Source: Kibdelosporangium persicum (GTDB taxonomy: Bacteria; Actinomycetota; Actinomycetes; Mycobacteriales; Pseudonocardiaceae). From it: 64,000 bases of DNA. Location of the stretch: positions 124,001-188,000 of the forward strand of contig NZ_JAAATY010000015.1 of assembly GCF_013280595.1 (NCBI RefSeq), given 5' to 3'. The position numbers were made by a program, and so were the translations under genes. Positions within the stretch are counted from its first letter, which is position 1. Each line of letters opens with the position of its first letter. Shown piece by piece: positions 10,973 through 61,590 of this stretch. The notes beneath the pieces are model-generated. The model was given only the letters and a program-made list of their open reading frames with translations, made no database searches and was not told the origin of the DNA.

Positions 10973-11022
10973 CCCTCGTGAGTGTTTATCGGTGTTCTAA
11001 CCCTGATAAACACTCACGAGGG
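10973..11022 (+). repeat. 50-bp palindromic element, copy 1
   Basis: Left arm CCCTCGTGAGTGTTTATC is matched perfectly by the right arm over 18 bp. The inner part GGTGTT-CT-AACCCT is imperfect (one G-T and one T-C opposition). The centre reads CT on the plus strand. It lies between cvnC and the NCS1 permease promoter, both on the plus strand, so it could end the conservon transcript as an RNA hairpin, but there is no T-tract. Identical in sequence to copy 7 read on the other strand. Confidence 0.95.
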
Positions 11023-11065
11023 ATGAGCAGGGGTTTTTGTGGATGCTGGCCCTGTCGGCGCGACC

Positions 11066-11094
11066 TTGACGGGGCAGGGGCCGGGGCCTAGCGT
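11066..11094 (+). promoter_or_regulatory. promoter of the NCS1 permease/GntR operon
   Basis: TTGACG (11066-11071) and TAGCGT (11089-11094) with a 17-base spacer match the actinobacterial housekeeping consensus well. The start of transcription would be near 11101, about 35 bases before the ATG. A direct repeat TGAAC-N5-TGAAC (11105-11119) lies just downstream in the leader and could be part of the site recognised by the GntR regulator encoded second in the operon (inference). Confidence 0.5.
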
Positions 11095-11135
11095 CCACAG
11101 GCAGTTGAACAGGTCTGAACCGGATCGGGTGGGCC

Positions 11136-12578
11136 ATGGCGCACGAGGTAGCGGCCGGGAAGAAGCCGTTCCAGGTCGAGGCGAACGGCATCAACGTGAT
11201 CAGCGACGCCGAGCGCAAAGGCACTCCGCGCCAGCTGTTCTGGCCGTGGTTCGCGGCCAACGTGTCGGTGTTCGGCCTGAGCTACGGCTCCTTCGTGCTC
11301 GGCTTCGGCATCTCCTTCTGGCAGGCCGCGATCGTCGGGCTGATCGGCATCACGGTGTCGTTCCTGCTCTGCGGGCTGGTGGCGGTGGCGGGCAAACGCG
11401 GGTCCGCGCCGACCATGGTGCTCTCACGCGCGGCCTTCGGCGTGCGCGGCAACCGGCTGCCGTCGTTGATCTCCTGGATGCTCACGGTCGGCTGGGAGAC
11501 GGTGCTGACGATCCTGGCGACGTTCGCGACGGCGACCGTGTTCGAGCGGCTCGGCTGGGGCGGCGGCACCCCGACGAAGATCATCGCGCTGATCGTGGTG
11601 ACCGTGCTGACCATCGCCGGTGGTGTGCTCGGGTTCGACCTGATCATGCGGATGCAGACGTGGATCACGGTGATCACCGGTGTGCTGACGGTCGTCTACA
11701 TCGGGTTCGTCGCCCACCGCGTCGACTGGTCCGCGGTCTCCGCCCTGCCCGCGGGATCGGCGCAGAACGTGATCGGCGCGCTGGTGTTCCTGATGACCGG
11801 CTTCGGGCTGGGCTGGGTGAACGCCGCCGCGGACTACTCCAGATACCTGCCGCGCGGTACGTCCGGGCGCGCGGTCGTCGGCTGGACCGCGTTCTCCTCG
11901 TCGCTCGCGCCGATCGTGCTGCTGCTGTTCGGCCTGTTGCTGGCGGGGTCGTCGGCGGACCTGAACGAGTCGATCGCCGCCGACCCGATCGGCGCGCTGG
12001 CCGCGATCCTGCCGACGTGGTACCTCGTGCCGTTCGCGCTGGTCGCCGTGCTCGGCCTGGTCGGCGGTGCGGTGCTGAACATCTATTCGTCCGGCTTGAC
12101 CCTGCTCGCGCTCGGCGTACGAATCCCGCGTTACGCGGCGTCCTTCGTGGACGGCATCGTCGTCGTGGTGGGCACGGTGTACGTGGTGTTCTTCGCGGAC
12201 ACGTTCTTCGGGCAGTTCCAGGGATTCCTCATCACACTCGGTGTGCCGATCGCGGTATGGTGCGGCGTCATGTTGGCCGACATAGCTCTGCGTCGACGCG
12301 ACTACGCGGAGGAAGACCTCTACAAGCCGTCCGGACGGTACGGCGACGTACGCGCGTTGCCCATCGTCACGGTGCTCGCCGGGACCGCGATCGGCTGGGG
12401 ACTGGTCACCAACGCCAACGCGGCTTGGCTTGCGTGGCAAGGGTATCTGCTGTCACCGTTGGGCCTGGCGGACGGCTGGTCCGGTGCCAACCTCGGCGTG
12501 CTGGTGGCCTTGGTGGTCGGCTTCCTCGTCACGGTGCTGTTCAGCCGCCGCCGGGTCAGGGCGCAGGAGCAGGTGTGA
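11136..12578 (+). CDS. purine/cytosine permease family (NCS1) transporter
   Basis: A 480-aa protein with about 12 transmembrane helices and the NCS1 layout (CodB/PurP relatives). A polar N-terminus is followed by FWPWFAANVSVFGLSYGSFV in helix 1 and AAADYSRYLPR, the typical NCS1 stretch after helix 6. NCS1 carriers use H+ or Na+ to import nucleobases, hydantoins, thiamine or related compounds. The exact substrate cannot be read from the sequence. The stop overlaps the GntR gene by four bases (GTGA), so the regulator probably controls this transporter. No catabolic gene accompanies it. Confidence 0.88.
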   Translation: MAHEVAAGKKPFQVEANGINVISDAERKGTPRQLFWPWFAANVSVFGLSYGSFVLGFGISFWQAAIVGLIGITVSFLLCGLVAVAGKRGSAPTMVLSRAAFGVRGNRLPSLISWMLTVGWETVLTILATFATATVFERLGWGGGTPTKIIALIVVTVLTIAGGVLGFDLIMRMQTWITVITGVLTVVYIGFVAHRVDWSAVSALPAGSAQNVIGALVFLMTGFGLGWVNAAADYSRYLPRGTSGRAVVGWTAFSSSLAPIVLLLFGLLLAGSSADLNESIAADPIGALAAILPTWYLVPFALVAVLGLVGGAVLNIYSSGLTLLALGVRIPRYAASFVDGIVVVVGTVYVVFFADTFFGQFQGFLITLGVPIAVWCGVMLADIALRRRDYAEEDLYKPSGRYGDVRALPIVTVLAGTAIGWGLVTNANAAWLAWQGYLLSPLGLADGWSGANLGVLVALVVGFLVTVLFSRRRVRAQEQV

Positions 12579-13282
12579 GCGACCGGGTCGGCAGGCTCAA
12601 GCACGAGCGGATCGTCGAGCAACTGGCCAAGGAGATCCAGTCCGGCAGGCTGGCGCACGGCGCGCGGTTGCCGGGGGAGAACGCGCTCGCGGCGAGGTTC
12701 AGCGTCAGCCGCAACACTGTCCGGCAGGCGTTGACGCAGCTGGGCAACCAGGGCCTGATCGCCACGCATTCCGGCAAGGGCTCGTTCGTCACGTTCGACG
12801 ACCGCCCGATAGACGACCGTCTCGGCTGGACCCGTGCGTTGGCCGACCAGGGCGTGCGGACCGCGGTCGTGCGCGTCGACCTGGTCGAGGACGTCGGCCT
12901 GGCCGAGTGGGTGGGCGGCCTGGAATCGGCCGAGTTCGTCGCGGTGGACCGGCTGCGCTCCACTGTGGATGGATCGCCGGTCTCGTTCGAGCGCAGCCGG
13001 GTCCCGGCCATCGGGACGTTGCGCGAGCTGCCGTCCCGTGGCCTGGAGGGCTCGTTGTACGACGAGTTGCGCGCGGTCGGCCTGGTACCCGACTCGGGCG
13101 AGGAGTGGTGTGATCTCGCCCGGCTGTCCGCGGCCGACGCGCAACTGCTGGGACGGCCGGAAGGCGAACGTTTCCTGCGCACCCGGCGGCTGACCCGGGA
13201 CGCCAACGGGCAGTTCGTGGAACACGTGGAAAGCCTGCTGGACCCCGACAGGTTCCGCCTGCACCTGGTCTTCGGCGGCTAG
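12575..13282 (+). CDS. GntR-family regulator with UTRA ligand domain (HutC subfamily)
   Basis: A 235-aa regulator. The winged-helix domain covers residues 5-70 with the GntR signature LPGENALAARFSVSRNTVRQ, followed by the UTRA ligand-binding domain (about 85-230), including RTRRLTRDANGQFVEHVES near the end. The start is the GTG in the GTGAGC overlap with the permease stop; the much longer open frame upstream is only the permease read out of frame. As the second gene of the permease operon it is likely an autorepressor that responds to the imported compound or a product of it. Effector unknown. Confidence 0.9.
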   Translation: MSDRVGRLKHERIVEQLAKEIQSGRLAHGARLPGENALAARFSVSRNTVRQALTQLGNQGLIATHSGKGSFVTFDDRPIDDRLGWTRALADQGVRTAVVRVDLVEDVGLAEWVGGLESAEFVAVDRLRSTVDGSPVSFERSRVPAIGTLRELPSRGLEGSLYDELRAVGLVPDSGEEWCDLARLSAADAQLLGRPEGERFLRTRRLTRDANGQFVEHVESLLDPDRFRLHLVFGG

Positions 13283-13384
13283 ATAGCGGCTACATCGCGA
13301 CAGTGCCACAGGCGACGGTGCGGGCGATCATCGGAGACCAGGCGCCCCACCGGCTTCAGGACCACGCGAGACTACGCTGGCCCG

Positions 13385-13792
13385 GTGGCCTGCTTGTTCT
13401 GTGAGATAGTCGCCGGGCGTGAGCCCGCCTTCGTCGTCGCCGCCGAACCGGCCGGAACGGCGTTCCTCGACACCAGACCGGTCTTCAAGGGGCACACGCT
13501 CGTGGTGCCGCCCGTCCACATCGAGACCCTCGCGGATCTGCCGGTCGCGGATCTCGCGGGATACTTCGGCTTCGTGCAACGAATAGCGGTCGCCGTCAAG
13601 GAAGGCCTCGGCGCCCAGGGCACCTTCGTGGCGATGAACAACACCGTCAGCCAGAGCGTTCCCCACCTGCACACGCACGTCGTGCCCCGCACCAAGGGCG
13701 ACGGCCTGCGCGGATTCTTCTGGCCACGAACCAAATACGCCGCCGACGAGGAAGCCGAGTCCTACGCCGCCGACATCCGAGCGAAGGTGTGA
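13385..13792 (+). CDS. HIT (histidine triad) family hydrolase
   Basis: A 135-aa HIT protein with the N-terminal CLFCEIVAG typical of HinT-like members and the active-site triad HLHTH at residues 94-98. HIT proteins hydrolyse nucleoside phosphoramidates, dinucleoside polyphosphates or similar nucleotide conjugates. The GTG start has a TACGCT -10-like hexamer (13373-13378) ending 6 bases upstream and no Shine-Dalgarno, suggesting a leaderless mRNA. One base separates its stop from the next ATG, so it is co-transcribed with the PLP enzyme. The metabolic link between the two is not evident. Confidence 0.92.
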   Translation: MACLFCEIVAGREPAFVVAAEPAGTAFLDTRPVFKGHTLVVPPVHIETLADLPVADLAGYFGFVQRIAVAVKEGLGAQGTFVAMNNTVSQSVPHLHTHVVPRTKGDGLRGFFWPRTKYAADEEAESYAADIRAKV

Positions 13793-13793
13793 C

Positions 13794-14807
13794 ATGCCGA
13801 TCGACCTGTCCGGACAGCCCCGAGTCGGCCTCGGCCACTGGCCGACCCCGCTGGAGGACTGCCCACGGCTGACCGAAGCCCTCGGCGGCCCGCGAATCCT
13901 GGTCAAGCGCGACGACGTCAACGGGCTCGGCGTCGGCGGGAACAAGCTGCGCAAGGCCGAGTTCCTGCTCGGCAAGGCGCTTGCCGAAGGCGCGGACACC
14001 GTCATCACGTTCGGTGCCGTCCAGACCAACCACGGACGTCAGATCGCAGCCGCCTGCGCCCGTCTCGGCCTGCGCTGCGAGCTCGTGCTGACGAGGTCCG
14101 TGCCGATGTCCGGGGAAGCCTACGAACGATCCGGCAACATAGCCCTTGACGGCTTGTACGGCGCCCACGTGCACGTGTGTGACACGCCGGAACAGGCCGG
14201 CGAGGTGTACGACAAGGTCGTCGCGGCTGCCAGGGCGGACGGCCGCAAAACCGCGACGTTTCCCGTCGGCGGCTCCAACGGTGTCGGCGTGCTGGGCTAC
14301 GTCGCCGCCGTGGACGAGCTGCACACCCAGCTGGACGGCACCAAGGTCAACCGGATCGTGGTGGCCGTGGGCAGTGCGGGGACCGCGGCCGGGCTGGCCG
14401 TGGGGATCGCCCTGCTCGACTGGCCGGTGGTGCTCGACGGCCAGTGCATCTCGCACACGGCCGGCGAATCCCTCGCCGACATCCGCAGGCTCGCCGGTGA
14501 GGTCTCGGACGTGCTCGGCACGCCGGTAGGAGACCTGGCGCACGTCCAGGTCGGCGATGGCGCGGTCGGCCCTGGTTACGGCGTGCCGACGGCCGAAATG
14601 TGGGAAGCGCTGCGGCTGTTCGCCCGGACCGAGGGGATCACGCTCGACCCGGTCTATTCCGGCAAAGCCGCCGCGGCTGTTGTGGCTGGTGTGCGCAGTG
14701 GGGCGATTGGGGCTGACGAAACGGTGGTCTTCCTGCACACGGGCGGTTTGCCGGGTCTGTTCGCCTATGCTCCGGAACTGGTTCGTTCGAGCGAAAACCA
14801 GCCGTAG
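13794..14807 (+). CDS. PLP-dependent ACC deaminase / D-cysteine desulfhydrase family enzyme
   Basis: A 337-aa fold-type II PLP enzyme. The cofactor lysine is K51 in GVGGNKLRKAEFLL, followed by the conserved GAVQTNHGRQIAAACA, the serine- or asparagine-containing loop of this family. The phosphate-binding loop and C-terminal TGGLPGLFAY, close to the family ending HTGGxPALF, are present. Family members are 1-aminocyclopropane-1-carboxylate deaminases, D-cysteine desulfhydrases or related sulfonate lyases; sequence inspection does not distinguish these safely. D-cysteine desulfhydrase-like is the more general label. The gene follows the HIT gene by one base. Confidence 0.87.
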   Translation: MPIDLSGQPRVGLGHWPTPLEDCPRLTEALGGPRILVKRDDVNGLGVGGNKLRKAEFLLGKALAEGADTVITFGAVQTNHGRQIAAACARLGLRCELVLTRSVPMSGEAYERSGNIALDGLYGAHVHVCDTPEQAGEVYDKVVAAARADGRKTATFPVGGSNGVGVLGYVAAVDELHTQLDGTKVNRIVVAVGSAGTAAGLAVGIALLDWPVVLDGQCISHTAGESLADIRRLAGEVSDVLGTPVGDLAHVQVGDGAVGPGYGVPTAEMWEALRLFARTEGITLDPVYSGKAAAAVVAGVRSGAIGADETVVFLHTGGLPGLFAYAPELVRSSENQP

Positions 14808-14872
14808 GTATCCCGCGCGAGCACGCGAGCCGGGAACATGGGCCCGGGTGGGGCTGACGAAAGGCAGGTCCC

Positions 14873-15775
14873 ATGGGGCACAGTGACAAGACCCGGTTCG
14901 CCTTGTTGTCGGCGGTGCTGACGACCATTGTCGTATTGGCGTTGAGCCTGGTGTTCCCCGGACCGGTGTGGTTGTGGGCGGCGATCTTCGTCAGCGCGAA
15001 CGGAATTGCCGTTCTGGTGGCCAGACGAGTGGTGCACAGGCGGGAGCAGGCCGAATTGCGTAAAGCGATGGAAGAACAGCGCGCGGCCAGGGACGCCGCC
15101 GAGGCAGTCGCCGAACACCAGGGGCAGTCCGGGGCGCCGGCGGAACCGGAGCAGCCCGCGCACGTGCAGTACCCGGTTTCCGCCGTGCCGTTGCCCAGCT
15201 CCGAGGTGGACTACCGCTTCCTGTTCTCGGCGACCGTGTGCTGGCGCCAGACGAGCCCGAAGGCCACGGTGCCGCACGCGAGCCCCGGTGACCTGGCCGT
15301 GCACTGGATCCTGACGCGGGCCCGCGAGCTGACCGTGCTGGAGAAGCCCGAGGACTACCGCGTCGTGCAGCACCGGCTGGCGGTCGCGTTGGGCACGGCA
15401 CTGGCCGAGCCGTACGGGCACGTGGTGGCCTGGGCGGTGGACGTCTCACTGGCCATGTCGGACGAGGACGCCCGGCGCCTGGAGCGCCTCGCCGAGCTGC
15501 GGAAACACGAGCGCATGTGGGAGCAGGAACGGCGGATGGAGATCAGCATGCGCCGCTACCTCAGCGAGGACGTGCTGAAGGACACCGGCAGCGCGGTGGT
15601 CTGGTGGCTGGCCCGGCACACCGACCAGATCGAGGACAGCGTGAAGATGATCGGCCACCTCGCTCAGCTGACGGCCGCGGCCAACAGCAGGGAGATCCCG
15701 GGGCCCGATCTGATCCGCGCGATCCAGGCGGCCGAGAACGGCAGGCACATCAACGGCTCGGCGCAGGATCTCTGA
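14873..15775 (+). CDS. unknown two-helix membrane protein with cytoplasmic domain
   Basis: A 300-aa protein that I cannot assign to a family. Residues 9-29 and 32-50 are two adjacent transmembrane helices. A charged coiled-coil segment rich in Glu, Arg and Ala runs from about 53 to 85. A soluble domain of 200 residues follows, with tryptophans at conserved-looking positions (VCWRQTS, VVWWLARHTDQ) and an Arg/Glu-rich helix EQERRMEISMRRYL. An AAAGG-like ribosome site precedes the ATG by a few bases. It stands alone. The layout suggests a membrane-tethered scaffold or a regulator, but there is no direct evidence for a function. Confidence 0.75.
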   Translation: MGHSDKTRFALLSAVLTTIVVLALSLVFPGPVWLWAAIFVSANGIAVLVARRVVHRREQAELRKAMEEQRAARDAAEAVAEHQGQSGAPAEPEQPAHVQYPVSAVPLPSSEVDYRFLFSATVCWRQTSPKATVPHASPGDLAVHWILTRARELTVLEKPEDYRVVQHRLAVALGTALAEPYGHVVAWAVDVSLAMSDEDARRLERLAELRKHERMWEQERRMEISMRRYLSEDVLKDTGSAVVWWLARHTDQIEDSVKMIGHLAQLTAAANSREIPGPDLIRAIQAAENGRHINGSAQDL

Positions 15776-16236
15776 CGCGCCACACCGAGCCGGGCCAGTT
15801 CGGCGTCCCGGCTCACGGCCGAGCCGCTGGGCCTGCACCGCGGACGCCGGTCTCTTCCGGCTGCGCCACCTCGATCAGCGCCGCCCGGCGCGATCGGGGC
15901 CGTCGGCCTGATCCTGCCGTGGCGACCGGGATCGTCGAAGCGCGCACGCCGCTCACGGCGGCCGGACTCGGAGTGTGCGGATTCCGGCGGGAGTCGTGCG
16001 CGCCCGGCGAAGCGGGTTCGAAATTCCCGCCTGCCAACGTGATTCGCTCCCTGCCGGTATTTCTGTTGCCATCGGCCGGTTTGCGACCGTGTGATCATGA
16101 ATGGCAGCGGTCCGTAGTGTGAGCGCGGACACCCGGTATTGCCTTTGGTCACAAGGATGTGCCACGGATAGGGTTTCGGTCGTCTGACCCGCGCACGGGG
16201 GCGGCGGGTGATCCATGAACTCTGGGGAGATTCCTC
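15776..16236. other. 461-bp stretch without a convincing gene
   Basis: Open frames cross this region on the minus strand but have no start, no ribosome site and no recognisable motif. The first 200 bp are as G+C rich as coding DNA, so it may contain a decayed gene; the last 100 bp are less G+C rich and contain the likely DHA2 exporter promoter. A T-arm-like hairpin at 16012-16030 is not part of a tRNA. Confidence 0.5.
16145..16174 (+). promoter_or_regulatory. candidate promoter of the DHA2 exporter
   Basis: TTGGTC (16145-16150) and TAGGGT (16169-16174) with an 18-base spacer lie about 60 bp upstream of the GTG start in a lower-G+C stretch. Match to the housekeeping consensus is moderate. Confidence 0.3.
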
Positions 16237-17784: not shown

Positions 17785-17878
17785 CGGGGCCATGCCTGGG
17801 CTGGATATCCCGATCGGCCGAAGGTCGTTGTGTGATATCGAGGTGTACGAACGTCCCGGCTAAGGGAGCGCGGAGGAA

Positions 17879-18445: not shown

Positions 18446-18450
18446 CGGGA

Positions 18451-23033: not shown

Positions 23034-23053
23034 CCGGCGGTGGCCCAGGACGG

Positions 23054-28145: not shown

Positions 28146-28649
28146 GTGGAGGACGACAGAAACTTACTCGACCGGGCGCGAGCCGGCGCCCGGGAGCTGG
28201 TGCACGTGGCCAGGGAAGGGGACACGGACGGCGTTTTCGAAGCGCTCCGCAGGCTCACCGGCCACCAGGGCGTCGTCGGGCCGGACACCCGCCTGATCGT
28301 CGGGCAGTTGGTCTCCGCGTCGGCTCAGATGATGTTGTTGCGAGTGGGCTCGCCGCCCCCGGACGTCACGTACGCGGTGGATCTGCGTGACGACGACGAG
28401 TTCGCGGTGCCGATCGACGAGCTGGAACCTCCGCTGCGGGCCACCGTCAGGGCCCTGCTGGCCGAGCTGAACGGCCGGCCGGAGGAGGCCGATTTCCAGC
28501 TCGACCTGGCTTTGCGTGAGCGGACCGTGCCCACCACCCTGGATGTCGTCGTGCATTCGCTGCTGTGGACCATCGGGCTGCTGGAGTGGTGTGAGGCCGA
28601 ACGGCAGCCCGCTCCCGAGTGGTTGTCGGCCGGCTGGTCCTGCAACTAG
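28146..28649 (+). CDS. hypothetical protein, 167 aa
   Basis: A soluble 167-aa protein with no family I recognise. It begins with a charged helix (VEDDRNLLDRARAGARELVH), has a central DLRDDDEFAVPIDELEPPLR acidic stretch, and ends with two Trp-containing segments (LLWTIGLLEW and WLSAGWSCN). It is transcribed divergently from the 56-aa/DUF2993 operon, with about 50 bp between the starts. The GTG at 28146 is preferred because the longer frame would run into the shared promoter region. It is followed by palindromic repeat copy 2. Confidence 0.7.
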   Translation: MEDDRNLLDRARAGARELVHVAREGDTDGVFEALRRLTGHQGVVGPDTRLIVGQLVSASAQMMLLRVGSPPPDVTYAVDLRDDDEFAVPIDELEPPLRATVRALLAELNGRPEEADFQLDLALRERTVPTTLDVVVHSLLWTIGLLEWCEAERQPAPEWLSAGWSCN

Positions 28650-28673
28650 CGCCGGTCACCTTCCAGCGTGGGG

Positions 28674-28717
28674 TCGTGAGTGTTTATCCGGGTTCTAACC
28701 CTGATAAACGCTCACGA
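28674..28717 (+). repeat. 50-bp palindromic element, copy 2 (44 bp of it)
   Basis: TCGTGAGTGTTTATCCGGGTT, centre CT, then AACCCTGATAAACGCTCACGA. Compared with the consensus the outermost CCC/GGG is degenerate. One arm position is T opposite G, one is C opposite T. It lies between two convergent genes. A separate GC-rich terminator hairpin follows 7 bases later. Confidence 0.9.
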
Positions 28718-28723
28718 GGAAAA

Positions 28724-32761: not shown

Positions 32762-32811
32762 CCCTCGTGAGTGGTTGTCCGGGTTCTAACCCGGATAACC
32801 ACTCACGAGGG
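32762..32811 (+). repeat. 50-bp palindromic element, copy 3
   Basis: The most perfect copy: left 24 bases start CCCTCGTGAGTGGTTGTC, then GGGTT-CT-AACCC and a right arm that pairs at 23 of 24 positions plus one G-T. Compared with copies 1, 4, 5 and 7 the base pair after GAGTG is G-C instead of T-A, changed on both arms. It lies between the convergent xylA and cysteine-desulfurase-like genes, and its right end encodes the last two residues and the stop codon of the latter. Confidence 0.97.
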
Positions 32812-43508: not shown

Positions 43509-45067
43509 CAGTCACGGCAGATCCGCCGGTCGACGGCGTGAAACCGAGCCGTGCGCAAGTGGTGCAGGCGCTGTCCGGCCTGATGATGGGCATGTTCGTG
43601 GCCATCCTGGCCTCGACCGTCGTGGCCAACGCGCTGCCGCGGATCGTCGCGGACCTGGGCGGCTCGCAGTCGTCCTACACCTGGGTGGTCACCACCGAAC
43701 TGCTCGCGATGACCGCGACGGTTCCGCTCTGGGGCAAGCTCTCCGACCTCTACAACAAGAAGCTGCTGATCCAGCTGTCGCTGGGGATGTTCGTGGCCGG
43801 TTCGCTGGTCGCCGGGTTCTCCGGGGACATCGGCACGCTGATCGCCAGCCGGGTCGTGCAGGGCATCGGCGCGGGCGGCCTGACCGCGTTGGCGCAGGTC
43901 GTCATGGCGGCCATGGTGTCGCCGCGGGAACTGGGCCGCTACATGGGCATCTTCGGCGCCGTGTTCGCGGTCGGCACGGTGGCGGGCCCGCTGATCGGCG
44001 GCCTCATGGTGGACACCTCGTGGCTCGGCTGGCGCTGGTGCTTCTTCCTCGGTGTCCCGTTCGCGGTCCTGGCGATCCTGCTGCTGCAGCGAACCCTGAA
44101 CATCCCGACGGTCCGGCGGGAGGGCGCGAAGGTCGACTACCTCGGCGCGTTCCTGATCATGCTCGGCGTGTCTACGCTGCTGGTGTGGACCACGCTGGCC
44201 GGCCACCAGTTCGACTGGCTGTCGGGCTGGACGTTCTTCCTGGTCGGCGGCGGTGTCGTGGTGCTCGCGCTGGCCGTGTGGGTGGAGTCGCGGGTGGCCG
44301 AGCCGATCGTGCCGCTGAGCATCTTCCGCAACCGCACGATCTCGCTCACCACGATCGTCAGCTTCCTCGTCGGTATCGCGATGTTCGGCGGCACCGTCTT
44401 CCTGTCCCAGTACTTCCAGCTGTCGCTGGGCAAGTCGCCGACCGTGGCCGGGCTGATGGGCCTGCCGATGATCTTCGGCCTGCTGGTCTCCTCGACCCTG
44501 TCCGGGCAGATCATCAGCCGGACCGGCAAGTGGAAGAGTCATCTGATCATCGGTGGCGTGTTCATGATCGCCGGGTTCGCGTTGCTGGCCACGATCGACC
44601 GCGGCACCAGCATCGTGGTGCTCAGCGGGTACATGATCGTGCTCGGCATCGGCGTCGGCATGCTGATGCAGAACCTCGTGCTGGTCGCGCAGAACGACGT
44701 GGCCGCGCAGGACCTGGGCGCGGCGACCTCGGTGCTGTCGTTCTTCCGCAGCCTCGGCGGCTCGATCGGCGTCAGCGTGCTGGGCGCGGTCCTGGCCAAC
44801 CGGGTGACCGGTGAGATCACCTCGCACCTCGGCCCGCTGCCGGGCGGCTCGTCCACGTCCGCGGTGCCCGACCTGAGCACCCTGCCCGAGCCGATCGCGA
44901 CCGTGATCAGGGACGCGTACGCCGTCGCGACCAGCGAGATCTTCCTGTACTGCCTGCCGTTCGCGGTGCTGGCGGTGGCGTTGATCTTCTTCCTGAGGCA
45001 GATCCCGCTCAAGACCCAGACCGGCGCCGAGCGGCTCGCCGAGGAAACCGCAGGTACCCCCTCGTGA
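43505..45067 (+). CDS. MFS drug exporter, DHA2 family (TetR-controlled)
   Basis: A 520-aa, 14-helix DHA2 exporter. Helix 1 has LASTVVANALPRIV (DHA2 motif), WVVTTELLAMTATVPLWGKL begins helix 2 and motif A, and GPLIGGLMVDTSWLGWRW covers motif C and the following loop. It should export drugs or the organism's own antibiotic by H+ antiport. It is coupled to the TetR gene upstream. The last codons (CCC TCG TGA) are part of palindromic element copy 4, so the repeat provides the stop. Confidence 0.93.
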   Translation: MTVTADPPVDGVKPSRAQVVQALSGLMMGMFVAILASTVVANALPRIVADLGGSQSSYTWVVTTELLAMTATVPLWGKLSDLYNKKLLIQLSLGMFVAGSLVAGFSGDIGTLIASRVVQGIGAGGLTALAQVVMAAMVSPRELGRYMGIFGAVFAVGTVAGPLIGGLMVDTSWLGWRWCFFLGVPFAVLAILLLQRTLNIPTVRREGAKVDYLGAFLIMLGVSTLLVWTTLAGHQFDWLSGWTFFLVGGGVVVLALAVWVESRVAEPIVPLSIFRNRTISLTTIVSFLVGIAMFGGTVFLSQYFQLSLGKSPTVAGLMGLPMIFGLLVSSTLSGQIISRTGKWKSHLIIGGVFMIAGFALLATIDRGTSIVVLSGYMIVLGIGVGMLMQNLVLVAQNDVAAQDLGAATSVLSFFRSLGGSIGVSVLGAVLANRVTGEITSHLGPLPGGSSTSAVPDLSTLPEPIATVIRDAYAVATSEIFLYCLPFAVLAVALIFFLRQIPLKTQTGAERLAEETAGTPS

Positions 45068-45108
45068 GTGTTTATCAGGGTTAGAACCCTGACAAACACT
45101 CACGAGGG
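45059..45108 (-). repeat. 50-bp palindromic element, copy 4
   Basis: Left arm CCCTCGTGAGTGTTTATC, then AGGGTT-AG-AACCCT and the right arm; 23 of 24 arm positions pair and the other is A opposite C on the plus strand (G opposite T on the minus). The centre reads AG here, so by the CT rule it is in minus orientation. It supplies the stop of the DHA2 gene at one end and abuts the first possible GTG of the COG0523 gene at the other. Confidence 0.97.
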
Positions 45109-45128
45109 TGAGCAGTACAGTCGGGGGC

Positions 45129-46160
45129 GTGATCCCGGTTGTACTGCTCACCGGCTTCCTCGGCTCCGGCAAGACCACGCTGCTCAACCACCTGCTGCGC
45201 AGTGCGCGCGGCACCCGGATCGGCGTGATCGTCAACGACTTCGGGCAGATCAACGTCGACGCGATGGCCGTCGCCGGCCAGGTCGACTCGATGGTCTCGC
45301 TGAGCAACGGCTGCCTGTGCTGCGTGGCCGACACCTCGGACATCGACGAGATGCTCGGCAAGCTCGCCGGCGCCAAGCTGGACGTGATCGTCATCGAGGC
45401 CAGTGGCCTGGCCGATCCGCAGACCATGGTGCGCAAGCTCCTGGCCAGCACCGACACCCGGGTGCGGTACGGCGGGCTGGTCACGGTCCTCGACGCGGCC
45501 GAGTTCACCAGGACCCACGCCGAGCACCCGGAACTGGTCAAGGCGCTGCGGATCGCGGACCTGCTCGTGCTCAACAAGATCGACCGGGCCGGGGCCGCCA
45601 CCGAGCTGATCGACACGATCCGCACGCACAACGGCGTATCACCGATCATGCCGGTGAGCCACGGCCGGGTCGATCCCGAGCTGCTGTTCGACCGCGCGCC
45701 GGAACTGCCGGTCGCGCGGCAGTTGTCGTTCGACGACCTGGACGATCACTCGGACCACGCGCACGCCGTGTACGACACGGTCACGTTCACCTCGGCCGAG
45801 CCGATGCACCCGGTCCTGCTGATGGACTTCCTGGACAACCGGCCGGCCGGGCTGTACCGGATGAAGGGCTTCGTCCACTTCGGACTGCCCGGCCACACCG
45901 ACCGGTTCGAGGTCCAGACCGTCGGCAACTACCTGCGCTTCCACCGTTCACCGTGGCCGCGTGGCAGCACACCGCGGACCGAGCTCGTGCTCATCGGCAA
46001 GGACGTCGACGCGACCGCGGCCGACTGGCTCGAAGCCTGCCGGCAGACCGGGCCGGTCGACGTCGACGACATGCTGTGGGTGACGCGGTATCTGGACTCA
46101 GTGGACGCCGTGCATGAACCGCCGGAGGACGGGCCGCAGGCCGAGCAGGACGAGACCTAG
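45129..46160 (+). CDS. COG0523 (CobW-like) P-loop GTPase, metal-homeostasis family
   Basis: A 343-aa G3E GTPase. Walker A GFLGSGKTTLL begins at residue 9, the metal-binding CxCC motif is GCLCC, the base-recognition motif is NKID, and a His/Asp-rich linker (DDLDDHSDHAH) follows. The C-terminal CobW_C domain is RMKGFVHFG onward. Members insert or traffic zinc or cobalt. The start at 45129 gives MIPVVLLTGFLGSGK, the normal family N-terminus; an in-frame GTG at 45108 would add 7 residues and begin exactly at the repeat edge. The 3' end overlaps the convergent peptide transporter by 63 bp. No Zur box was recognised. Confidence 0.9.
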   Translation: MIPVVLLTGFLGSGKTTLLNHLLRSARGTRIGVIVNDFGQINVDAMAVAGQVDSMVSLSNGCLCCVADTSDIDEMLGKLAGAKLDVIVIEASGLADPQTMVRKLLASTDTRVRYGGLVTVLDAAEFTRTHAEHPELVKALRIADLLVLNKIDRAGAATELIDTIRTHNGVSPIMPVSHGRVDPELLFDRAPELPVARQLSFDDLDDHSDHAHAVYDTVTFTSAEPMHPVLLMDFLDNRPAGLYRMKGFVHFGLPGHTDRFEVQTVGNYLRFHRSPWPRGSTPRTELVLIGKDVDATAADWLEACRQTGPVDVDDMLWVTRYLDSVDAVHEPPEDGPQAEQDET

Positions 46161-50312: not shown

Positions 50313-50339
50313 CCGTCGCGGAGTGGACAGCGGCGTGAG

Positions 50340-50795: not shown

Positions 50796-50825
50796 TTCGT
50801 TCGTGACTACGACCACCGTTATAAT
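50796..50825 (+). promoter_or_regulatory. candidate promoter with perfect TATAAT
   Basis: TATAAT at 50820-50825 is a perfect -10 hexamer, rare in DNA of this composition. TTCGTT at 50796-50801 with an 18-base spacer is a weak -35. The overlapping TATAAC on the minus strand could also serve DUF1304. Confidence 0.4.
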
Positions 50826-50949
50826 CAGTGTGACGAAACGGCAAGCTGGATTGCGCACGTGCCGGGGCATCCGGCAGAGGTGGAACCGCGCTGCGGGAGG
50901 CACTCGCGGTCAACGTTTGTGTCCATCCGCGACTGTCCACTCACGTCAA

Positions 50950-50998
50950 CCCTCGTGAGTGTTTATCGGTGTTCTAACCCGGATAAACACTCACGAGG
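50950..50998 (+). repeat. 50-bp palindromic element, copy 5
   Basis: Left arm CCCTCGTGAGTGTTTATC, inner GGTGTT-CT-AACCCG, right arm ending CTCACGAGG. The outer 17-18 bp pair perfectly; the inner part has two mismatches (G-G and T-C). It sits between divergent genes, so it cannot be the terminator of either; it could lie within the ArsR leader. Confidence 0.95.
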
Positions 50999-51128
50999 CT
51001 TATCAGGGCTTTCGGCGGGGATCACGTCGAGTTGTCGCTCTTGAGGTTGGCGCTGAACGGATATCCGCTCCGACCGCGACATGACAGCATCGGTGTGCAC
51101 GACTGGCTGTGCTACACCGGGGGACGAT

Positions 51129-52759: not shown

Positions 52760-52892
52760 AGGTGTGGTCTCCCCCCGCGACTTCGAGGAACAGCCACAGG
52801 TGAAACATCCCGCCGTCGGTTGACACTGTTCCTCGTTGATCTCGTCCGCCGATACTGGCCAACAGCGTCTTCAGTTCGGCAACAGCTCGGTT

Positions 52893-54520: not shown

Positions 54521-54591
54521 CAGTACCGGCGGATACCCGTTCCGCCCGGTGGTCATGCGTGCGCCCGGCCATTCAGGGGTAACCCGCCGGT

Positions 54592-55965: not shown

Positions 55966-56003
55966 CGACGTCGTCCCGCCACGACGCACGTGGACACTCA
56001 CCG

Positions 56004-56017
56004 TGTGACGGGTCACA
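56004..56017. promoter_or_regulatory. perfect palindrome TGTGAC-GG-GTCACA upstream of the AfsR gene
   Basis: A perfect 6+6 palindrome 41 bp before the chosen ATG. The half-sites TGTGA/TCACA are those of CRP/FNR-type regulators, but the spacing is 4 bases between them instead of the usual 6, so a different regulator or autoregulation is possible. Confidence 0.4.
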
Positions 56018-56058
56018 ATGACGCGGATGCGTACGCCGACGACCCGACGAACCACGCC

Positions 56059-58875
56059 ATGAGCGAAGAAGCGGTGCGGTTCGGCGTTCTCGGTCCGCTG
56101 CGGGTCTGGCGCGGCCGGCGGGAGCTGGATCTCGGCCCGCCCCGGCAACGGCTGATCCTCGCGGTTTTGCTGGTCCGGCCCGGCGACATGGTCAGCGCCG
56201 ACGATCTGGTCGACGTGCTGTGGGACAGCGCCGCGCCGGCCAGCGCGAAGAACCTGATCCACCGGTACGTCGGGGCGTTGCGCCGGGTGCTGGAGCCGGA
56301 TCTGCCGCCTCGGGCCGCCGGGCGATGGCTGGTCCGGCAAGGGCCCGGATACGTGCTGCGGGCCGGCAAGGACAGCACGGACATCGCCGCGTTCCGCGAC
56401 CTGGTGGCCACGGCGAGGACCCAGAGCGACGCGGAGGCGTTGCCGACGTACTACCAGGCACTGGAGATGTGGAGCGGCGAATGCGCGGACGGCCTGGCGC
56501 TGACGCCCGCGGCTGAGGCCCTGTTCGCCTCGGTCAACAACGAGTTCACAACCGCGGTCGCGGCCATGGCCGACGCCGCGTTCCGCGTCGGCCGCGCGCC
56601 CGAAGCACTTCGCGCCCTGCACTGGGTCAGCCCGCAGGTCCCGCTCAACGAAGGGATTCAGGCCCGGCTGATGCTCGCGCTGGCCGCGTCCGGCAACCAG
56701 ACGGAGGCGCTGCAGGTCTACCGTGCCACCACCGAACGCCTCGCCGACGAGCTGGGCATCGATCCAGGCCAGGAACTGCGGGCGGCGTACGCCCAGGTAC
56801 GGCAGCAGGTGGAGCAGCCCGGTGACGCGTTGGGAACGAGGCCCGCGCAGTTGCCGATGGACCTCTCCACGTTCGGCGGCAGACGGGCCGAACTGGACTA
56901 TCTGCGATCTCTGCTGGAATCCGGCGACCCGCCGGTGACGATCGTCGCGATCGACGGCATGCCGGGCGCGGGCAAGACGACCACCGCGGTGCACCTCGCG
57001 CACGAGATCGTCGACCGGTACCCGGACGGCCAGCTCTACGTGAACCTGCGCGGCTTCGACCCCAGCGGACTCGCCGTTTCGCCGTCGACCGCGTTGGTCG
57101 GATTCCTGACCGCACTGGGGATACAGGGCGACCGCGTGCCGCCGGACGTCGCGTCACAGTCGGCGTTGTTCCGGACGTGCTTGGCGGGCAAGCGAATGCT
57201 CGTCGTGCTGGACAACGTGCGGGACCGCGAACAGGTTCTGCCGTTGCTGCCCGGGGCACCGAGCTGTCTGGTCATCGTGACCAGCCGCAACCGGATGACC
57301 GGCCTCGTCGCGATGGAAGGCGCCCGACCGTACACTTTGGACCCCGTGCCGGTCGAGGAGGCACGCGAGATCCTTGCCCTGCGGCTGGGTGCGCGCGGAC
57401 GTTCGGACGCGGCGGTCGACACGATCGTGGACGTCTGCGGCGGTCTGCCCCTGGCGCTGGCCATGGTGGCCGCGCGGGCGGCGACCTACCCTGACCTGCC
57501 GCTCAGCGCGATCGCCGAGGAGCTCCACTCCGGACACAGCAACCTGGACGCGCTCAGCCACGACGAAGCACGCGGAGTGCGTGCCGTGTTCTCGTGGTCC
57601 TACGAGGCTTTACGGCCGCAGGCGGCGTTGCTGTTCCGGTTGTTGTCCTGGCATTGGGGACCGGACATCTCGGTGCGCGCCTGCGCCAGTCTGCTGGGTG
57701 TTCCGCTGCGGGAGGCGCAGGCCTCGCTGGCCGAACTGAACCGGACCCGCTTGGTGACCGAGCACGTTCCAGGACGGTTCCTCATGCACGACCTGGTTCG
57801 CGCGTACGCCATGGAACTGAGCAGGGAACTGGACCCGGCTGAGGTTCGCGAGCAGGCCGTGCGCCGCGTCTTCGACTACTACGTGCACTCCGCGGTCGCG
57901 GCCAGCCTCCCGCTGATGCCCCACCGGCCCGTGCCGCTTGAGCCGCTGTCGCCGGGCGTCACACCTGAGCAGGGCTTCGACGACGCCTCGGCCTGCCAGT
58001 GGTTGGGCGCGGAGTACGCGGTGTTACGCACGTCGGTCGGTCAGGCGATCGAACGCGGCGACGCGGGGACGGCCTGGCGGATGGCCTTGGCGTTGCAGAT
58101 CTTCCAGCACTACATGGGATACCTGCGGGACTGGGCGAGCACGGCACGAGCCGCGCTCGAAGCGACCCGTGCCGCGGGGGACCAGCGCGGTCAGTTGTTC
58201 GCCGAACGCAGCCTGGCAGGCGCCTACTACATGTTGGGCGAGGGGCAGTCCGCGCTCCACCACCTGGGCAACATCCTCGAGTTGATCACCGCGGCCGGCC
58301 TGGCCGACGAGGAGAGCGCGTACGTCGAACGCAACATCGGCGAGGTGCTCTCCATGGGAGCCCTGGACATCGAGCCGGACTACCGGGCCGCGACCGAGCA
58401 CTTCGAGCGTGCCCTGACGCTCTACCGGCGGATGGACCACCCGCAAGGCGTCGCGTACTGCCTGGAAGGCATGGCCGTCTGCGCGGTGAAGCTGGGCGCG
58501 GGCGAGCGCGGCATCGAGCTGCTCAACGCGGCGATTCCCTTACACCGCCGGATCAACGACCGTGTCGGCGAGGGCTACGCGTACGCGAAGCTGGCCGAGG
58601 CCTACCTCCAGCTCGGCCGGCTCGACGAGGCCGCGACCTGGCTGGACCAGGCGATCGACCTGCACAGCAAGGGCAACCACCGGCCGATGCAGATGGACGA
58701 CCTGGTGCTGCTCGGCGACATCCGGATCGCCCAGGACGATCCGGACGGCGCGAGGGAGGCCTGGCAGAAGGCGCTGAGAGTGGCCGAGGAGCACGGCGTG
58801 CCCTACAGCGTGCCCGAGCTACAGGCCCGGCTGGCCGCCTTGGCGGGCGATCAGCAGCAGGTCAGCAGGCCTTGA
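56059..58875 (+). CDS. AfsR/SARP-family transcriptional regulator with NB-ARC and TPR domains
   Basis: A 938-aa AfsR-type regulator. An OmpR-like winged helix (about 5-95, VRFGVLGPLRVWRGRRELDL at the start) and the BTAD domain (about 100-250) form the SARP half. An NB-ARC ATPase follows with Walker A GMPGAGKTT at residue 300 and LVVLDNV as Walker B. C-terminal TPR repeats (about 680-930) close the protein. AfsR activates secondary-metabolite or developmental genes, often after phosphorylation by Ser/Thr kinases. The ATG at 56059 is preferred to a GTG at 55990 because the palindrome lies between them. It ends 14 bp inside the convergent carboxypeptidase gene. Confidence 0.93.
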   Translation: MSEEAVRFGVLGPLRVWRGRRELDLGPPRQRLILAVLLVRPGDMVSADDLVDVLWDSAAPASAKNLIHRYVGALRRVLEPDLPPRAAGRWLVRQGPGYVLRAGKDSTDIAAFRDLVATARTQSDAEALPTYYQALEMWSGECADGLALTPAAEALFASVNNEFTTAVAAMADAAFRVGRAPEALRALHWVSPQVPLNEGIQARLMLALAASGNQTEALQVYRATTERLADELGIDPGQELRAAYAQVRQQVEQPGDALGTRPAQLPMDLSTFGGRRAELDYLRSLLESGDPPVTIVAIDGMPGAGKTTTAVHLAHEIVDRYPDGQLYVNLRGFDPSGLAVSPSTALVGFLTALGIQGDRVPPDVASQSALFRTCLAGKRMLVVLDNVRDREQVLPLLPGAPSCLVIVTSRNRMTGLVAMEGARPYTLDPVPVEEAREILALRLGARGRSDAAVDTIVDVCGGLPLALAMVAARAATYPDLPLSAIAEELHSGHSNLDALSHDEARGVRAVFSWSYEALRPQAALLFRLLSWHWGPDISVRACASLLGVPLREAQASLAELNRTRLVTEHVPGRFLMHDLVRAYAMELSRELDPAEVREQAVRRVFDYYVHSAVAASLPLMPHRPVPLEPLSPGVTPEQGFDDASACQWLGAEYAVLRTSVGQAIERGDAGTAWRMALALQIFQHYMGYLRDWASTARAALEATRAAGDQRGQLFAERSLAGAYYMLGEGQSALHHLGNILELITAAGLADEESAYVERNIGEVLSMGALDIEPDYRAATEHFERALTLYRRMDHPQGVAYCLEGMAVCAVKLGAGERGIELLNAAIPLHRRINDRVGEGYAYAKLAEAYLQLGRLDEAATWLDQAIDLHSKGNHRPMQMDDLVLLGDIRIAQDDPDGAREAWQKALRVAEEHGVPYSVPELQARLAALAGDQQQVSRP

Positions 58876-60385
58876 TCCAGCTGCACTCGACGTCAGCGGG
58901 AACGGCGGCGACAGGGAGTCGCGCTGTGCGTGCCGCTGTTGTCTCGTCGGCACGGTACTCGGCCAGCCGGACCGCGACGGCGTCCTCGACCGGTTTGGCC
59001 GTTCCGATGAAGTTGTTGCTCAGCATGGCGAACACGAGTGGCTGCCCGTCGGCGGACGTCACGTAGCCGGACAGTCCGCTGACGCCGGTCAGGGTGCCGG
59101 TTTTGGCGTGCACGTTGCCCGCGGCTGCCGTGCCCGCCATCCGGCTGCGCAGCGTTCCGCCGACGAGCCTGTCCGAGATCCCGGCGACCGGCAGTGAGTT
59201 GTACCAGGTGGTGAACCACGGCTTGGTCCGCACGGCGCGCAGCAGCGCGACCACTTGTTCCGGCGAGATCTGGTTGAACCGGGACAACCCCGACCCGTCA
59301 GCCAGATAGGCGGTGCTCGCGTCGATGCCAAGGCCGCTCAGCCGTTGCCCGAGCGCGGTAAGCCCGGCCTGCCAGGTCCCGGCGCCGGACACCGCGCGTC
59401 CCATGCTCTTGATCAGGATCTCGGCGTGCATGTTGTTGCTCAGCTTCATGAACGGCACCAGCAACTCCGCCAACGGCATCGACTTGTGCTCGGCGACAAG
59501 CCGCGCGCCCGCGGGTGTGGCGCCGGTCTGCGTCGGCCCGGCGACGTGGACTCCGTGACGTTTCAGCGCTTCGCGGAACAACGCCGCCGCCAGGCCGGTG
59601 GGTTCCTTGACACTGGTCCATTTCCGCACCGGTGACGCCTGGTGCGGGATGCTTCCGCTGACCCGTACGACGGCGGAACCGTGCTTGCGCTCGACCGCGA
59701 TGGTGTTGGCGGTGCCCGGCGCACTGGTCACCGTGGCGTTCTCGATGGTGACGTACTTGTTGTCGGGCTGCATCGACACCACAGCGGCCTTGCCGGGCGA
59801 GCCGGGCTGGACCGCCACGATGACGCTCCCGGCGTCGTAGTCGGTGTCCGGGGAGACAGTCAGCGCGGACGTCTCGGCGCTGTAGTAGAAGGGCTCGTCG
59901 TCCCACGCCCAGCCCTTGCCGAGGCGGGTCGCGTCGAACCAGGTGTCGTCGGCGATCAGCTTGCCCGGAAGGGTCTGGACGCCGCTGGCGGCGACGTTCG
60001 CGGCAAGGGCGTCGTAGTCGGCCGCGAGCACGGTCGGGTCGCCCGTGCCCTTCAGGTAGAGGTCCCCGCCGGACTCCAGCACGGACGTGGTGAACCGGTG
60101 ATCAGGACCGAGCACGTCAAGCGCCGCGGCGGAGGTGAGCAGCTTCATGTTCGACGCCGGCTGGCGCCTGGCCTCGGCGTTGGAGCTGAACAGAACCTGC
60201 CCCGTGTCGGCTTTGCGTACCACGAGACCCACGGTCGCGCCGCGCAGGCTGGGGTCGTGCACGAGTGCGTTCAGGTCCGTCACCAGCTTGCTGTCCGCCT
60301 GCGCGGAGCCCGACGCCGGTAATCCGGCCAGCAGCACTGCGGCTGTCGCCAGGCCACACCCCACGAGCACCCTGTTGCGGGTCAT
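58862..60385 (-). CDS. dacB: D-alanyl-D-alanine carboxypeptidase/endopeptidase (PBP4, DacB type)
   Basis: A 507-aa class C penicillin-binding protein, exported by the signal peptide of about 30 residues (NRVLVGCGLATAAVLLAG, cleavage after SAQA). The three active-site motifs are SxxK as S78-N-M-K81, SxN as SNN at 316 and KTG at 428. It trims D-Ala from stem peptides and can cut DD-crosslinks. A cysteine pair at the C-terminus (VECSWIKAC) may form a disulfide. The ATG at 60385 follows a CGGAG ribosome site; the longer frame would put polar residues ahead of the signal. Confidence 0.93.
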   Translation of the reverse strand: MTRNRVLVGCGLATAAVLLAGLPASGSAQADSKLVTDLNALVHDPSLRGATVGLVVRKADTGQVLFSSNAEARRQPASNMKLLTSAAALDVLGPDHRFTTSVLESGGDLYLKGTGDPTVLAADYDALAANVAASGVQTLPGKLIADDTWFDATRLGKGWAWDDEPFYYSAETSALTVSPDTDYDAGSVIVAVQPGSPGKAAVVSMQPDNKYVTIENATVTSAPGTANTIAVERKHGSAVVRVSGSIPHQASPVRKWTSVKEPTGLAAALFREALKRHGVHVAGPTQTGATPAGARLVAEHKSMPLAELLVPFMKLSNNMHAEILIKSMGRAVSGAGTWQAGLTALGQRLSGLGIDASTAYLADGSGLSRFNQISPEQVVALLRAVRTKPWFTTWYNSLPVAGISDRLVGGTLRSRMAGTAAAGNVHAKTGTLTGVSGLSGYVTSADGQPLVFAMLSNNFIGTAKPVEDAVAVRLAEYRADETTAARTARLPVAAVPADVECSWIKAC

Positions 60386-60498
60386 CGACACTCCGAACGA
60401 AGAGGAACAATTCCGGGCTGGATCGCACACCTTACTCACGGTGTCGTCGGACGCCAGGTCGACAGCCGCAACCGGCGTGATGGCCTTCCTGCTCGGGA

Positions 60499-60544
60499 CT
60501 CGTGAGTGGAAAACCGTGTTCTAACCCCGATAACCACTCACGAG
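60499..60544 (+). repeat. 50-bp palindromic element, copy 6 (degenerate)
   Basis: CTCGTGAGTGG and CCACTCACGAG form a perfect 11-bp outer stem (G-C variant as in copy 3). The inner left arm, GAAAACCGTGTT, no longer pairs with CTAACCCCGATAAC at five positions. It lies between the amidase stop and the dacB start, both on the minus strand. Confidence 0.88.
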
Positions 60545-60562
60545 CCCTGAGCTGGGGAAGGG

Positions 60563-61426
60563 CTAGGACTCGTGGGCGAACCGGCCGGCTAAGGTCGAGT
60601 AGAGCTTGCGCGCCGTGGCTTCGGACAGCCCGTTGAGCAACAGTTCGGTCTGCTCGTCGGTCAGGTCGACCTGAGTCGCGTCCCTCCCGATGGCGGCCAG
60701 CAACGTGGCCTGGTCGGTCGTCAGGCTCCCCGCCATCGAATCCAGTTTGGCGTTGGTGACGGCCGTGTTGTTCGCGGCGATCCAGGCGGCGTAGTTGGTC
60801 CACATCACCCAGTCCCGGGCCTGGATCGTGGTGACTTTGCCGTCCGGGGCGGTGAACGTGAGGTTCTCGGTCCAGGACAAGTCGTCCTCCTCGGTGATCG
60901 CGGTGATCGGTGGCCCCGCCGCCAGCGAGTTGATCAGTCCGATGGCGGCGTACGCGTGCTGCCCCGGGCAGCTGGTGGCCTTCACGTCCCGGTGGCCGCC
61001 GTTGAGCCGCGCGTGCCTGATCCAGCCGTGGCGTTGGGCTTCCTGCAATACCCATGCCGCAGCCTGGATCTGGGCGTTGGTGGGACGCTGCACGTCGTAG
61101 TTGCCGATGAAACAGATCGCCCGGGCGATCGAGTTGCGGCCGCCGGTGTGCGCGCCGAGCCTGCCGACGGAATGGCCTTCGAAGATCAGCCCGGATGGCG
61201 TGATCGCCCATGTGTAGGAGATGCCTCTGCCGAACCGTTGCTCGCCGACGGCCTCCAGTGCGCGGACCGCCGCGTAGTCGTCGTCGAACGGCGCCACCAC
61301 GTCGGGTGCGATCGTGACCGAGTGGTGCAGCCACATCTCCGACGCGGGCAGCGGGGCCGAGCCGCTGCCGTTGTCGTGTGCCGCGCCCCATTCTCCGCGA
61401 AGGATGATGCGCGGTGTTCTGGCCAT
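60563..61426 (-). CDS. N-acetylmuramoyl-L-alanine amidase, PGRP/amidase_2 type, endolysin-like
   Basis: A 287-aa zinc amidase. The PGRP fold is recognised by MWLHHSVTIA (zinc histidine at 34/35), RGISYTWAITPSGLIFEG, GAHTGGRNSIARAICFIGN and the second zinc/catalytic set NGGHRDVKATSCPGQ. It cleaves the bond between muramic acid and L-Ala. The last 110 residues form a helical domain with repeated Ala/Asn-rich stretches, resembling tails of actinophage endolysins. No signal peptide is seen, as in phage endolysins. It is flanked on both sides by palindromic elements, with no other phage gene nearby. Confidence 0.88.
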   Translation of the reverse strand: MARTPRIILRGEWGAAHDNGSGSAPLPASEMWLHHSVTIAPDVVAPFDDDYAAVRALEAVGEQRFGRGISYTWAITPSGLIFEGHSVGRLGAHTGGRNSIARAICFIGNYDVQRPTNAQIQAAAWVLQEAQRHGWIRHARLNGGHRDVKATSCPGQHAYAAIGLINSLAAGPPITAITEEDDLSWTENLTFTAPDGKVTTIQARDWVMWTNYAAWIAANNTAVTNAKLDSMAGSLTTDQATLLAAIGRDATQVDLTDEQTELLLNGLSEATARKLYSTLAGRFAHES

Positions 61427-61541
61427 GCTTCACCTCGCTGATCGTCGACCAGTCGGTTACCCGCGGCAGGCGTTGCTCTAAAACACGTATCGGCCGGTCC
61501 GCCGGTTCACTTGACCGGATTACCCCAGTTGGCCGTACGCC

Positions 61542-61590
61542 CCCTCGTGAGTGTTTATCAGGGTTAGAACACCGATAAACACTCACGAGG
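61542..61590 (-). repeat. 50-bp palindromic element, copy 7
   Basis: Left arm CCCTCGTGAGTGTTTATC, inner AGGGTT-AG-AACACC, right arm. The centre reads AG, so it is in minus orientation, and read on that strand it has the same sequence as copy 1. It sits between divergent amidase and methyltransferase genes. Confidence 0.95.

Follow-up and report, generated by a model that had tools for sequence, protein, structure and literature searches.

The window, a 64,000-nucleotide stretch of the Kibdelosporangium persicum genome, contains seven copies of a 50-bp palindrome with either CT or AG at its centre. All seven palindromes reported in the first-pass annotation were found at the sites given there, except that the copies placed at 28674 and 60499 start three and two bases earlier, with the true 50-mers beginning at 28671 and 60497, respectively. 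The outer arm sequence CTCGTGAGTG has 12 exact matches in the window, every one within the seven palindromes. The copy at 10973..11022 (CT centre) is located in a co-directional gap, 15 nt past the stop codon of a plus-strand gene ending at 10957. The copy at 28671..28720 (CT) is located in a convergent gap with stops at 28649 (+) and 28758 (−), and has G rather than C as its left outer base and a right arm reading GCTCACGAG. The copy at 32762..32811 (CT), also in a convergent gap, overlaps the end of a minus-strand gene at 32803; at the orthologous site, genome G007 has an element with a different stem, and G001, G003, and G004 have other sequence. The copy at 45059..45108 (AG) supplies, with its own TGA, the stop codon of a plus-strand gene ending at 45067; at the orthologous sites, G001 and G003 have elements with other stems, and G004 has an unrelated hairpin. 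The copies at 50950..50999 (CT) and 61542..61591 (AG) are located in divergent gaps. Finally, the copy at 60497..60546 (CT), in a co-directional gap 16 nt past the stop of the minus-strand gene 60563-61426, has unequal arms (GGAAAACC and GATAACC). Based on our own gene calls and including ORF 45108-46160, which the gene caller left out, the seven gaps comprise two convergent, three co-directional, and two divergent ones. Folded as single-stranded DNA, three of the window copies had z-scores of −9 to −11.

Copy number, spread, and anatomy of the palindrome family

In the complete K. persicum assembly (G000; 10.35 Mb in 89 contigs), we identified 394 copies with at most three mismatches, and a reversed-control motif had no matches in the whole genome at the same cut-off. 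Together with searches of related genomes, this count shows that the palindrome is not confined to the window. It also bears on an earlier extrapolation from one copy per 9 kb: the prediction of hundreds of copies holds, but the density does not extend to the genome, which has one copy per ~26 kb, the window being denser (7 in 64 kb). In C1:1-800000, we found 53 copies, of which 36, 11, 5, and 1 had 0, 1, 2, and 3 mismatches, respectively; the palindrome gave no matches at 4 to 7 mismatches in this region, and the reversed control gave no matches at all.

Among the samples searched, the palindrome is a feature of the Pseudonocardiaceae, with a single matching genome outside the family. In seven relatives of the window's genus, the copy number ranges from 1 to 396. 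We considered a transfer to Rhodococcus and rejected it: the matches in Rhodococcus rhodnii NRRL B-16535, among those listed (at least 112 loci, with names given for 80), appear to stem from a mislabelled assembly because its contig 9 and contig C9 of Kibdelosporangium genome G003 both have a length of 492,217 bp. In agreement with the statement that no named actinomycete repeat of this sequence is known, we found no description or published name among the papers listed in our literature searches, and no described repeat family that matches; Rfam had 0 matches in the window at the gathering score.

The outer arms (CTCGTGAGTG...CACTCACGAG) and the centre (GTT-CT-AAC) are almost invariant. The nine base pairs between arms and centre vary among genomes and form genome-specific stem types, yet remain self-complementary. 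In this variable stem, 75-94% of the positions pair (33-63% in shuffled sets), and the covariation score of 0.400 (0.109 shuffled), with 200 cells changed on both sides, was reached by 0 of 500 shuffles. The median RNA folding energy of the elements is −33.6 kcal/mol. On the transcript strand, G-U (19) was not commoner than A-C (30), and AG and CT loops are about equally frequent relative to the transcript (37 and 36, respectively), without a preferred orientation; thus, the pairing of the stem has no RNA-strand signature, which counts against the 3'-end hairpin reading given below. Loops can differ in orientation in place, as the centre is CT in G278 and AG in G060, G334, and G175 with identical arms and the same mismatch. 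From position −3 outwards, the flanks have no fixed base.

Placement at gene ends and at orthologous sites

None of the 53 copies in 800 kb of C1, and none of 147 copies in a second count, was located within a gene. In the C1 sample there are 26 copies per 134 convergent pairs versus 27 per 590 for all other pairs, a five-fold difference in odds in favour of convergent neighbours (p = 1e-7). Where an element in C1 faces a stop codon, the two are a median of 5 nt apart; 62 of the 70 stop-facing sides lie within 30 nt of the stop codon, and in 15 of the 70 cases the element's own TGA is the stop codon. A stable hairpin this close behind the stop codon is what an intrinsic terminator would have. 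The first-pass annotation had argued from the occurrence of copies in all gap types that they are not simply terminators. All gap types are indeed represented in the window, but across the genome the copies are heavily skewed towards the 3' ends of genes, and the argument is not supported.

Streptomyces terminators mapped by Term-seq are described as long hairpins of high stability that are followed by few U residues (PMC12207403), and Streptomyces transcript ends are reported at a median of 66-76 nt from the stop codon. The palindromes resemble actinomycete intrinsic terminators in being long, stable hairpins with few downstream U residues, but differ in lying only a few nucleotides from the stop codon and in constituting a symmetric family of related sequences in which the ends and the centre are fixed. 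T-runs of at least four within 15 nt were enriched (7/63 copies versus 2/317 in the control) yet present in a minority, and this paucity of U-tracts counts against the 3'-end hairpin reading. The nine of 53 C1 copies in divergent gaps also count against a 3'-end hairpin; per neighbour pair, divergent gaps (9/134) are not poorer in copies than co-directional ones (18/456; p = 0.24).

In Amycolatopsis, all 30 loci fetched have a hairpin in the gap between the ribonucleotide-reductase genes nrdA and nrdB, and in 22 of the 30 the hairpin has the exact outer arms of the palindrome family. The hairpin is retained although its sequence varies, and unrelated hairpins are among those observed. Of 10 distinct orthologous slots lacking the element (15 rows), 3 slots (6 rows) have an unrelated hairpin of at least 10 bp, versus 1.6% of random segments; the absence of such a stem at the other 7 counts against the 3'-end hairpin reading. 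For the L044 orthologues compared, we obtained no usable element sites. The nrd-gap copy is closest to copies of its own genome in three of four genomes (G364, G022, and G060 but not G138), with arms taken from among the copies listed and with G348 and G278 left out; this sequence comparison tentatively points to within-genome homogenization.

We consider it probable that the palindromes are a RAYT-less, REP-like extragenic family of the Pseudonocardiaceae acting as symmetric 3'-end hairpins. This reading is based on the conserved ends and centre, the variable but self-complementary stem, the position beside stop codons and between convergent genes, the other hairpins at some orthologous slots, and the insertion of unrelated transposons at the loop. 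When transcribed from either side, the hairpin would end or protect the transcript, and it could serve as a terminator, an RNase barrier, or an insulator of convergent genes. Copies may multiply and replace each other inside a genome, perhaps via a DNA hairpin or cruciform. A more far-reaching proposal, which we regard as rather unlikely, is a RAYT-independent hairpin-copying system in which the stem is free, self-complementarity is restored at the DNA level, loops flip, and gene-end hairpins are swapped and partly homogenized per genome; copying would proceed via a cruciform or a single DNA strand, and the loop would have become, independently, a homing site for several transposon families.

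Amycolatopsis and its relatives are producers of clinical antibiotics. A repeat at 26 of 134 convergent C1 gene pairs would supply annotated gene ends and a strain-typing marker as well as a natural safe harbour, already exploited by IS1380- and IS481-family elements. The family would uncouple the REP lifestyle from its customary enzyme and provide a natural series on how a stem changes while pairing persists.

Mobile elements and alternative origins

The palindrome loop is a precise insertion site for unrelated transposons. For an IS1380-family element, all 8 right ends and all 8 left ends that could be read lie exactly at the loop, and IS481-like insertions at four loci have 16-17-bp repeats centred on the loop. 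In agreement with the earlier observation, this repeat of hundreds of copies has no target-site duplication: direct repeats of 3-9 nt at 205 copies were not clearly above shuffles (for 6 nt, 4 versus 1.8, sd 1.3). Likewise, by eye, we found no transposase among the translated genes between four close C1 pairs and one window pair; these genes look ordinary, and an autonomous parent between closely spaced copies was rejected. More generally, neither a copying enzyme nor a parent element was found, which counts against the main reading as well.

One alternative is that the palindrome is a purely selfish miniature mobile element, with the 3'-end bias reflecting least-harm insertion sites or target preference. 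The copy numbers of 1 to 396 in congeneric relatives, the genome-by-genome stem types, the 53 C1 copies without a decayed tail, and a near-clean presence/absence pair (G001 11837 versus G000) are in its favour. Like MITEs, the palindromes are short, non-coding, repeated, and inverted; unlike MITEs, they lack target-site duplications, and no matching autonomous element was found. Moreover, stops a few nucleotides away, other hairpins at some vacated slots, and an nrd hairpin kept at 30/30 loci despite sequence change point to a used function, and we give this alternative a minor chance.

Less likely still, the palindromes could be binding sites for a dimeric duplex-DNA-binding protein, such as a nucleoid or chromosome-organizing factor, reading the fixed arms and centre. 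The unoriented loop and the absence of an RNA-strand signature fit such sites, but an inner stem that is free yet paired is unneeded for duplex reading, and neither the abutment on stop codons with convergent bias nor the unrelated hairpins in the nrd slot are in line with it.

REP/BIME elements of Enterobacteria and Pseudomonas are short, high-copy extragenic palindromes that form hairpins and are targets of site-specific IS elements (PMC1525189, PMC8266576, PMC3733652), and the palindromes share all of these properties. With the G000 copies turned so that the centre reads CT, the two arms also differ, with T on the left and C on the right near the loop (34 mismatched cells in 67 copies examined), which is in favour of true REPs mobilized by a RAYT (Y1 transposase). 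However, the suggested link to a RAYT failed: Y1_Tnp (PF01797), a profile that also takes in other IS200/IS605 transposases, is missing from 13 of the 18 genomes with copies that were tested (G000, G007, G064, G060, G027, and eight more) and present in five (G003, G004, G005, G006, and G034) as well as in 2 of 12 genomes without strict copies. Of the conserved REP tags GTAG, CGTC, and GGAG, none, with its complement included, occurs within 8 nt of the stem in more than 6 of the 205 copies on either side, and unlike REP/BIME, the palindromes have fixed outer arms and centre around an inner stem that varies but stays paired. True REPs are therefore very unlikely.

Least likely of all are joined inverted IS ends (MITE-like), e.g., of the IS1380-family element, whose end begins AACCCTGAT, as do some palindrome arms, and whose left ends read AACCCTGATCC, compared with AACCCTGATAAAC in some G000 arms: the IS lies inside older palindromes with differing arms and loops, the palindrome-bearing G001-G007 had no match to its right-end pattern, and there is no stem match in other genera.

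DNA uptake sequences of Neisseria and Haemophilus pair as terminators, forming gene-end inverted repeats with lineage-specific dialects. The palindromes are likewise gene-end inverted repeats with lineage-specific dialects but were rejected as uptake sequences, since arm motifs outside palindromes are not in excess (two solitary arm 9-mers in 800 kb, with ~3.5 and ~3.2 expected for the two strand forms). Unlike BIMEs, which are paired or clustered, the C1 copies stand singly with a minimum spacing of 1060 bp (n = 53); some Amycolatopsis copies are paired 205-320 bp apart.

Copies, placement and taxonomic range

The seven palindromes of the window, from which the first-pass annotation extrapolated hundreds of copies, are real and belong to a genome-wide family with 394 copies in K. 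persicum (at most 3 mismatches; 0 with the reversed control). Within a continuous 800-kb stretch of the largest contig (C1), all 53 copies had 0 to 3 mismatches at the fixed positions and none had 4 to 7, so no decayed tail was seen in that stretch.

Based on gene calls from our own codon-usage gene caller, none of the 53 C1 copies and none of 147 copies in a second set was inside a gene (13 copies at locus edges were unclassified). Per neighboring gene pair in C1, we counted 26 copies for 134 convergent, 18 for 456 co-directional, and 9 for 134 divergent pairs; convergent pairs were enriched over the rest (p 1e-7), and divergent pairs were not poorer than co-directional pairs (p 0.24). Counted per gap of at least 40 bp, divergent gaps were poor in copies (9 of 53 copies versus 127 of 361 gaps, p 0.008). 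Stop-facing sides were mostly within 30 nt of the stop codon (62 of 70; median, 5), and 13 of 36 start-facing sides were within 40 nt of the start codon (median, 80.5). In 15 of the 70 stop-facing cases, the stop codon was the element's own TGA (tcgTGAgtg).

The strict pattern matched 21 of 120 genomes, K. persicum included, all among the 72 from its family, and none of the 48 from other families of the same order; among seven relatives in the genus, its copy number ranged from 1 to 396. A covariance model matched 190 of 346 family genomes and 27 of 46 genera, many of these matches being weak. In a class-wide sample, 2 of 394 genomes had matches, namely, K. persicum and G779, a genome from another family with two related palindromes, of which one has one mismatch and one has two. 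Among the 80 of 112 loci listed with names, we found Amycolatopsis, Kibdelosporangium, Haloechinothrix, Qaidamihabitans, Prauserella, Actinophytocola, and Pseudonocardia and, doubtfully, Rhodococcus. An assembly labelled Rhodococcus rhodnii NRRL B-16535 (JOAA01 records) seems to correspond to G003, which groups with Kibdelosporangium, and is probably mislabelled.

Pairing within the palindrome

Among 145 distinct copies from K. persicum and the named genomes, the central dinucleotide was CT (in either orientation) in 143 and GG in 2. Because the collecting pattern required TT..AA and an exact outer arm, their fixity in this set is partly by design; a looser scan of C1 agreed with it. The nine positions between arm and center were Watson-Crick paired in 75 to 94% of copies versus 33 to 63% after shuffling, and above-chance pairing extended 2 to 5 nt beyond the arm on the outside. 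When 49 dissimilar copies were aligned (three from the window and 46 of 62 listed), 13 of 23 pairs were changed on both sides, which 8 of 500 shuffles reached, while neither the 200 both-side-changed cells nor the covariation score of 0.400 was reached by any of 500. On the adjoining transcript's strand, G-U (19) did not outnumber A-C (30), and the loop lacked orientation relative to the transcript (37 versus 36), so the symmetry seems to be maintained equally on both strands. When K. persicum copies (window, C1, and C15) were oriented by their CT center, the two arms were unequal, and the mismatch seen most often was T on the left against C on the right near the loop (34 cells in 67 copies).

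Insertion sequences at the loop

Two half-elements in C1 led to an insertion sequence (IS) with an IS1380-family transposase (NCBIfam NF033539, E 6.5e-81). In K. persicum, all eight right ends of this IS and all eight of its readable left ends were inside palindromes at the loop, the ninth left end being a contig end. Because the occupied palindromes vary in arms and loops from copy to copy, the IS inserted into pre-existing copies. None of the seven relatives (G001 to G007) yielded a match to the right end of the IS. K. persicum has about eight or nine copies of this IS (loci L261 to L268 and L272 to L280), and its end sequence AACCCTGAT is similar to one form of the palindrome arm.

A search for half-elements gave matches in 27 of 38 genomes, although some of these matches were just mutated palindromes. 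Four IS481-like insertions had 16-bp direct repeats (17 bp in L296, with one base ambiguous) centered on the loop, and the protein of one of them (L299) matched NF033577. A transposase adjoins a half-element in L304 (best match NF041680, below its cut-off) and in L295 (IS30 family). In the relative G007, 9 of 15 half-element matches run on into CTGGTGTT, and L304 contains a transposase-like ORF; this is probably another loop-targeting IS. Several Amycolatopsis genomes carry a MITE-like short non-coding insert at the palindrome loop (L281, L287, L288, L309, and G354:C32:87169-87407), with ends GGAC(C/T)(G/C)GTATTT...AAATACCGGTCC. REPs are known targets of IS3, IS110, IS4, IS256, and IS5 (PMC1525189); the accessible part of that article does not contain the terms IS481 and IS1380.

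Hairpin exchange and proposed role

The slot orthologous to that of the copy at 45059 holds an element in K. persicum and its relatives G001 and G003, with three different stems, and an unrelated 16-bp hairpin in G004, the flanks of which are 97% and 92% identical to those of G003. The slot of the copy at 32762 holds a copy with another stem in G007, an unrelated hairpin in G001, and, in G004, a 19-nt gap that lacks a strong stem. Over all orthologue comparisons, 8 of 23 target slots held an element. A stem of at least 10 bp was present in 6 of 15 element-free rows (3 of 10 distinct slots) compared to 1.6% of random segments; thus, replacement by another hairpin is frequent, not general.

In Amycolatopsis, the gap that separates the alpha- and beta-subunit genes of ribonucleotide reductase contained a hairpin in all 30 loci fetched out of 80 matching genomes. 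Exact outer arms were present in 22, with eight different inner arms; by reading, the remainder were four variants and four unrelated hairpins. With no loop pattern imposed, 14 of these 22 had TTAGAA or TTCTAA and 8 had other loops. The same imperfect arms enclose AG in G060, G334, and G175 and CT in G278, which looks like an in-place inversion of the loop.

We propose a REP-like family without a RAYT, in which the hairpin would cap gene ends and be readable from both sides. Placement, hairpin stability, and the other hairpins in the same slots suggest that the element may function in termination or 3' protection. A U-tract is present in few copies, as is likewise reported for Streptomyces terminators (PMC12207403). 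The Y1 transposase was missing from most copy-bearing genomes and, as to the copying route, we found neither a target duplication nor a parent element. The loop flips, the strand-symmetric covariation, and the insertions at the loop would all be consistent with the element being extruded as a hairpin of DNA or as a cruciform.

Other strong hairpins, in L258, L259, and L260 and beside nrdB in L232, L233, L236, and L243, resemble further dispersed Amycolatopsis families (GTGAAGGACTCCTTGAGG... and TACATGAAGGCCCCCTTCC...CTAGG...), which occupy the same kind of slot as the palindrome.
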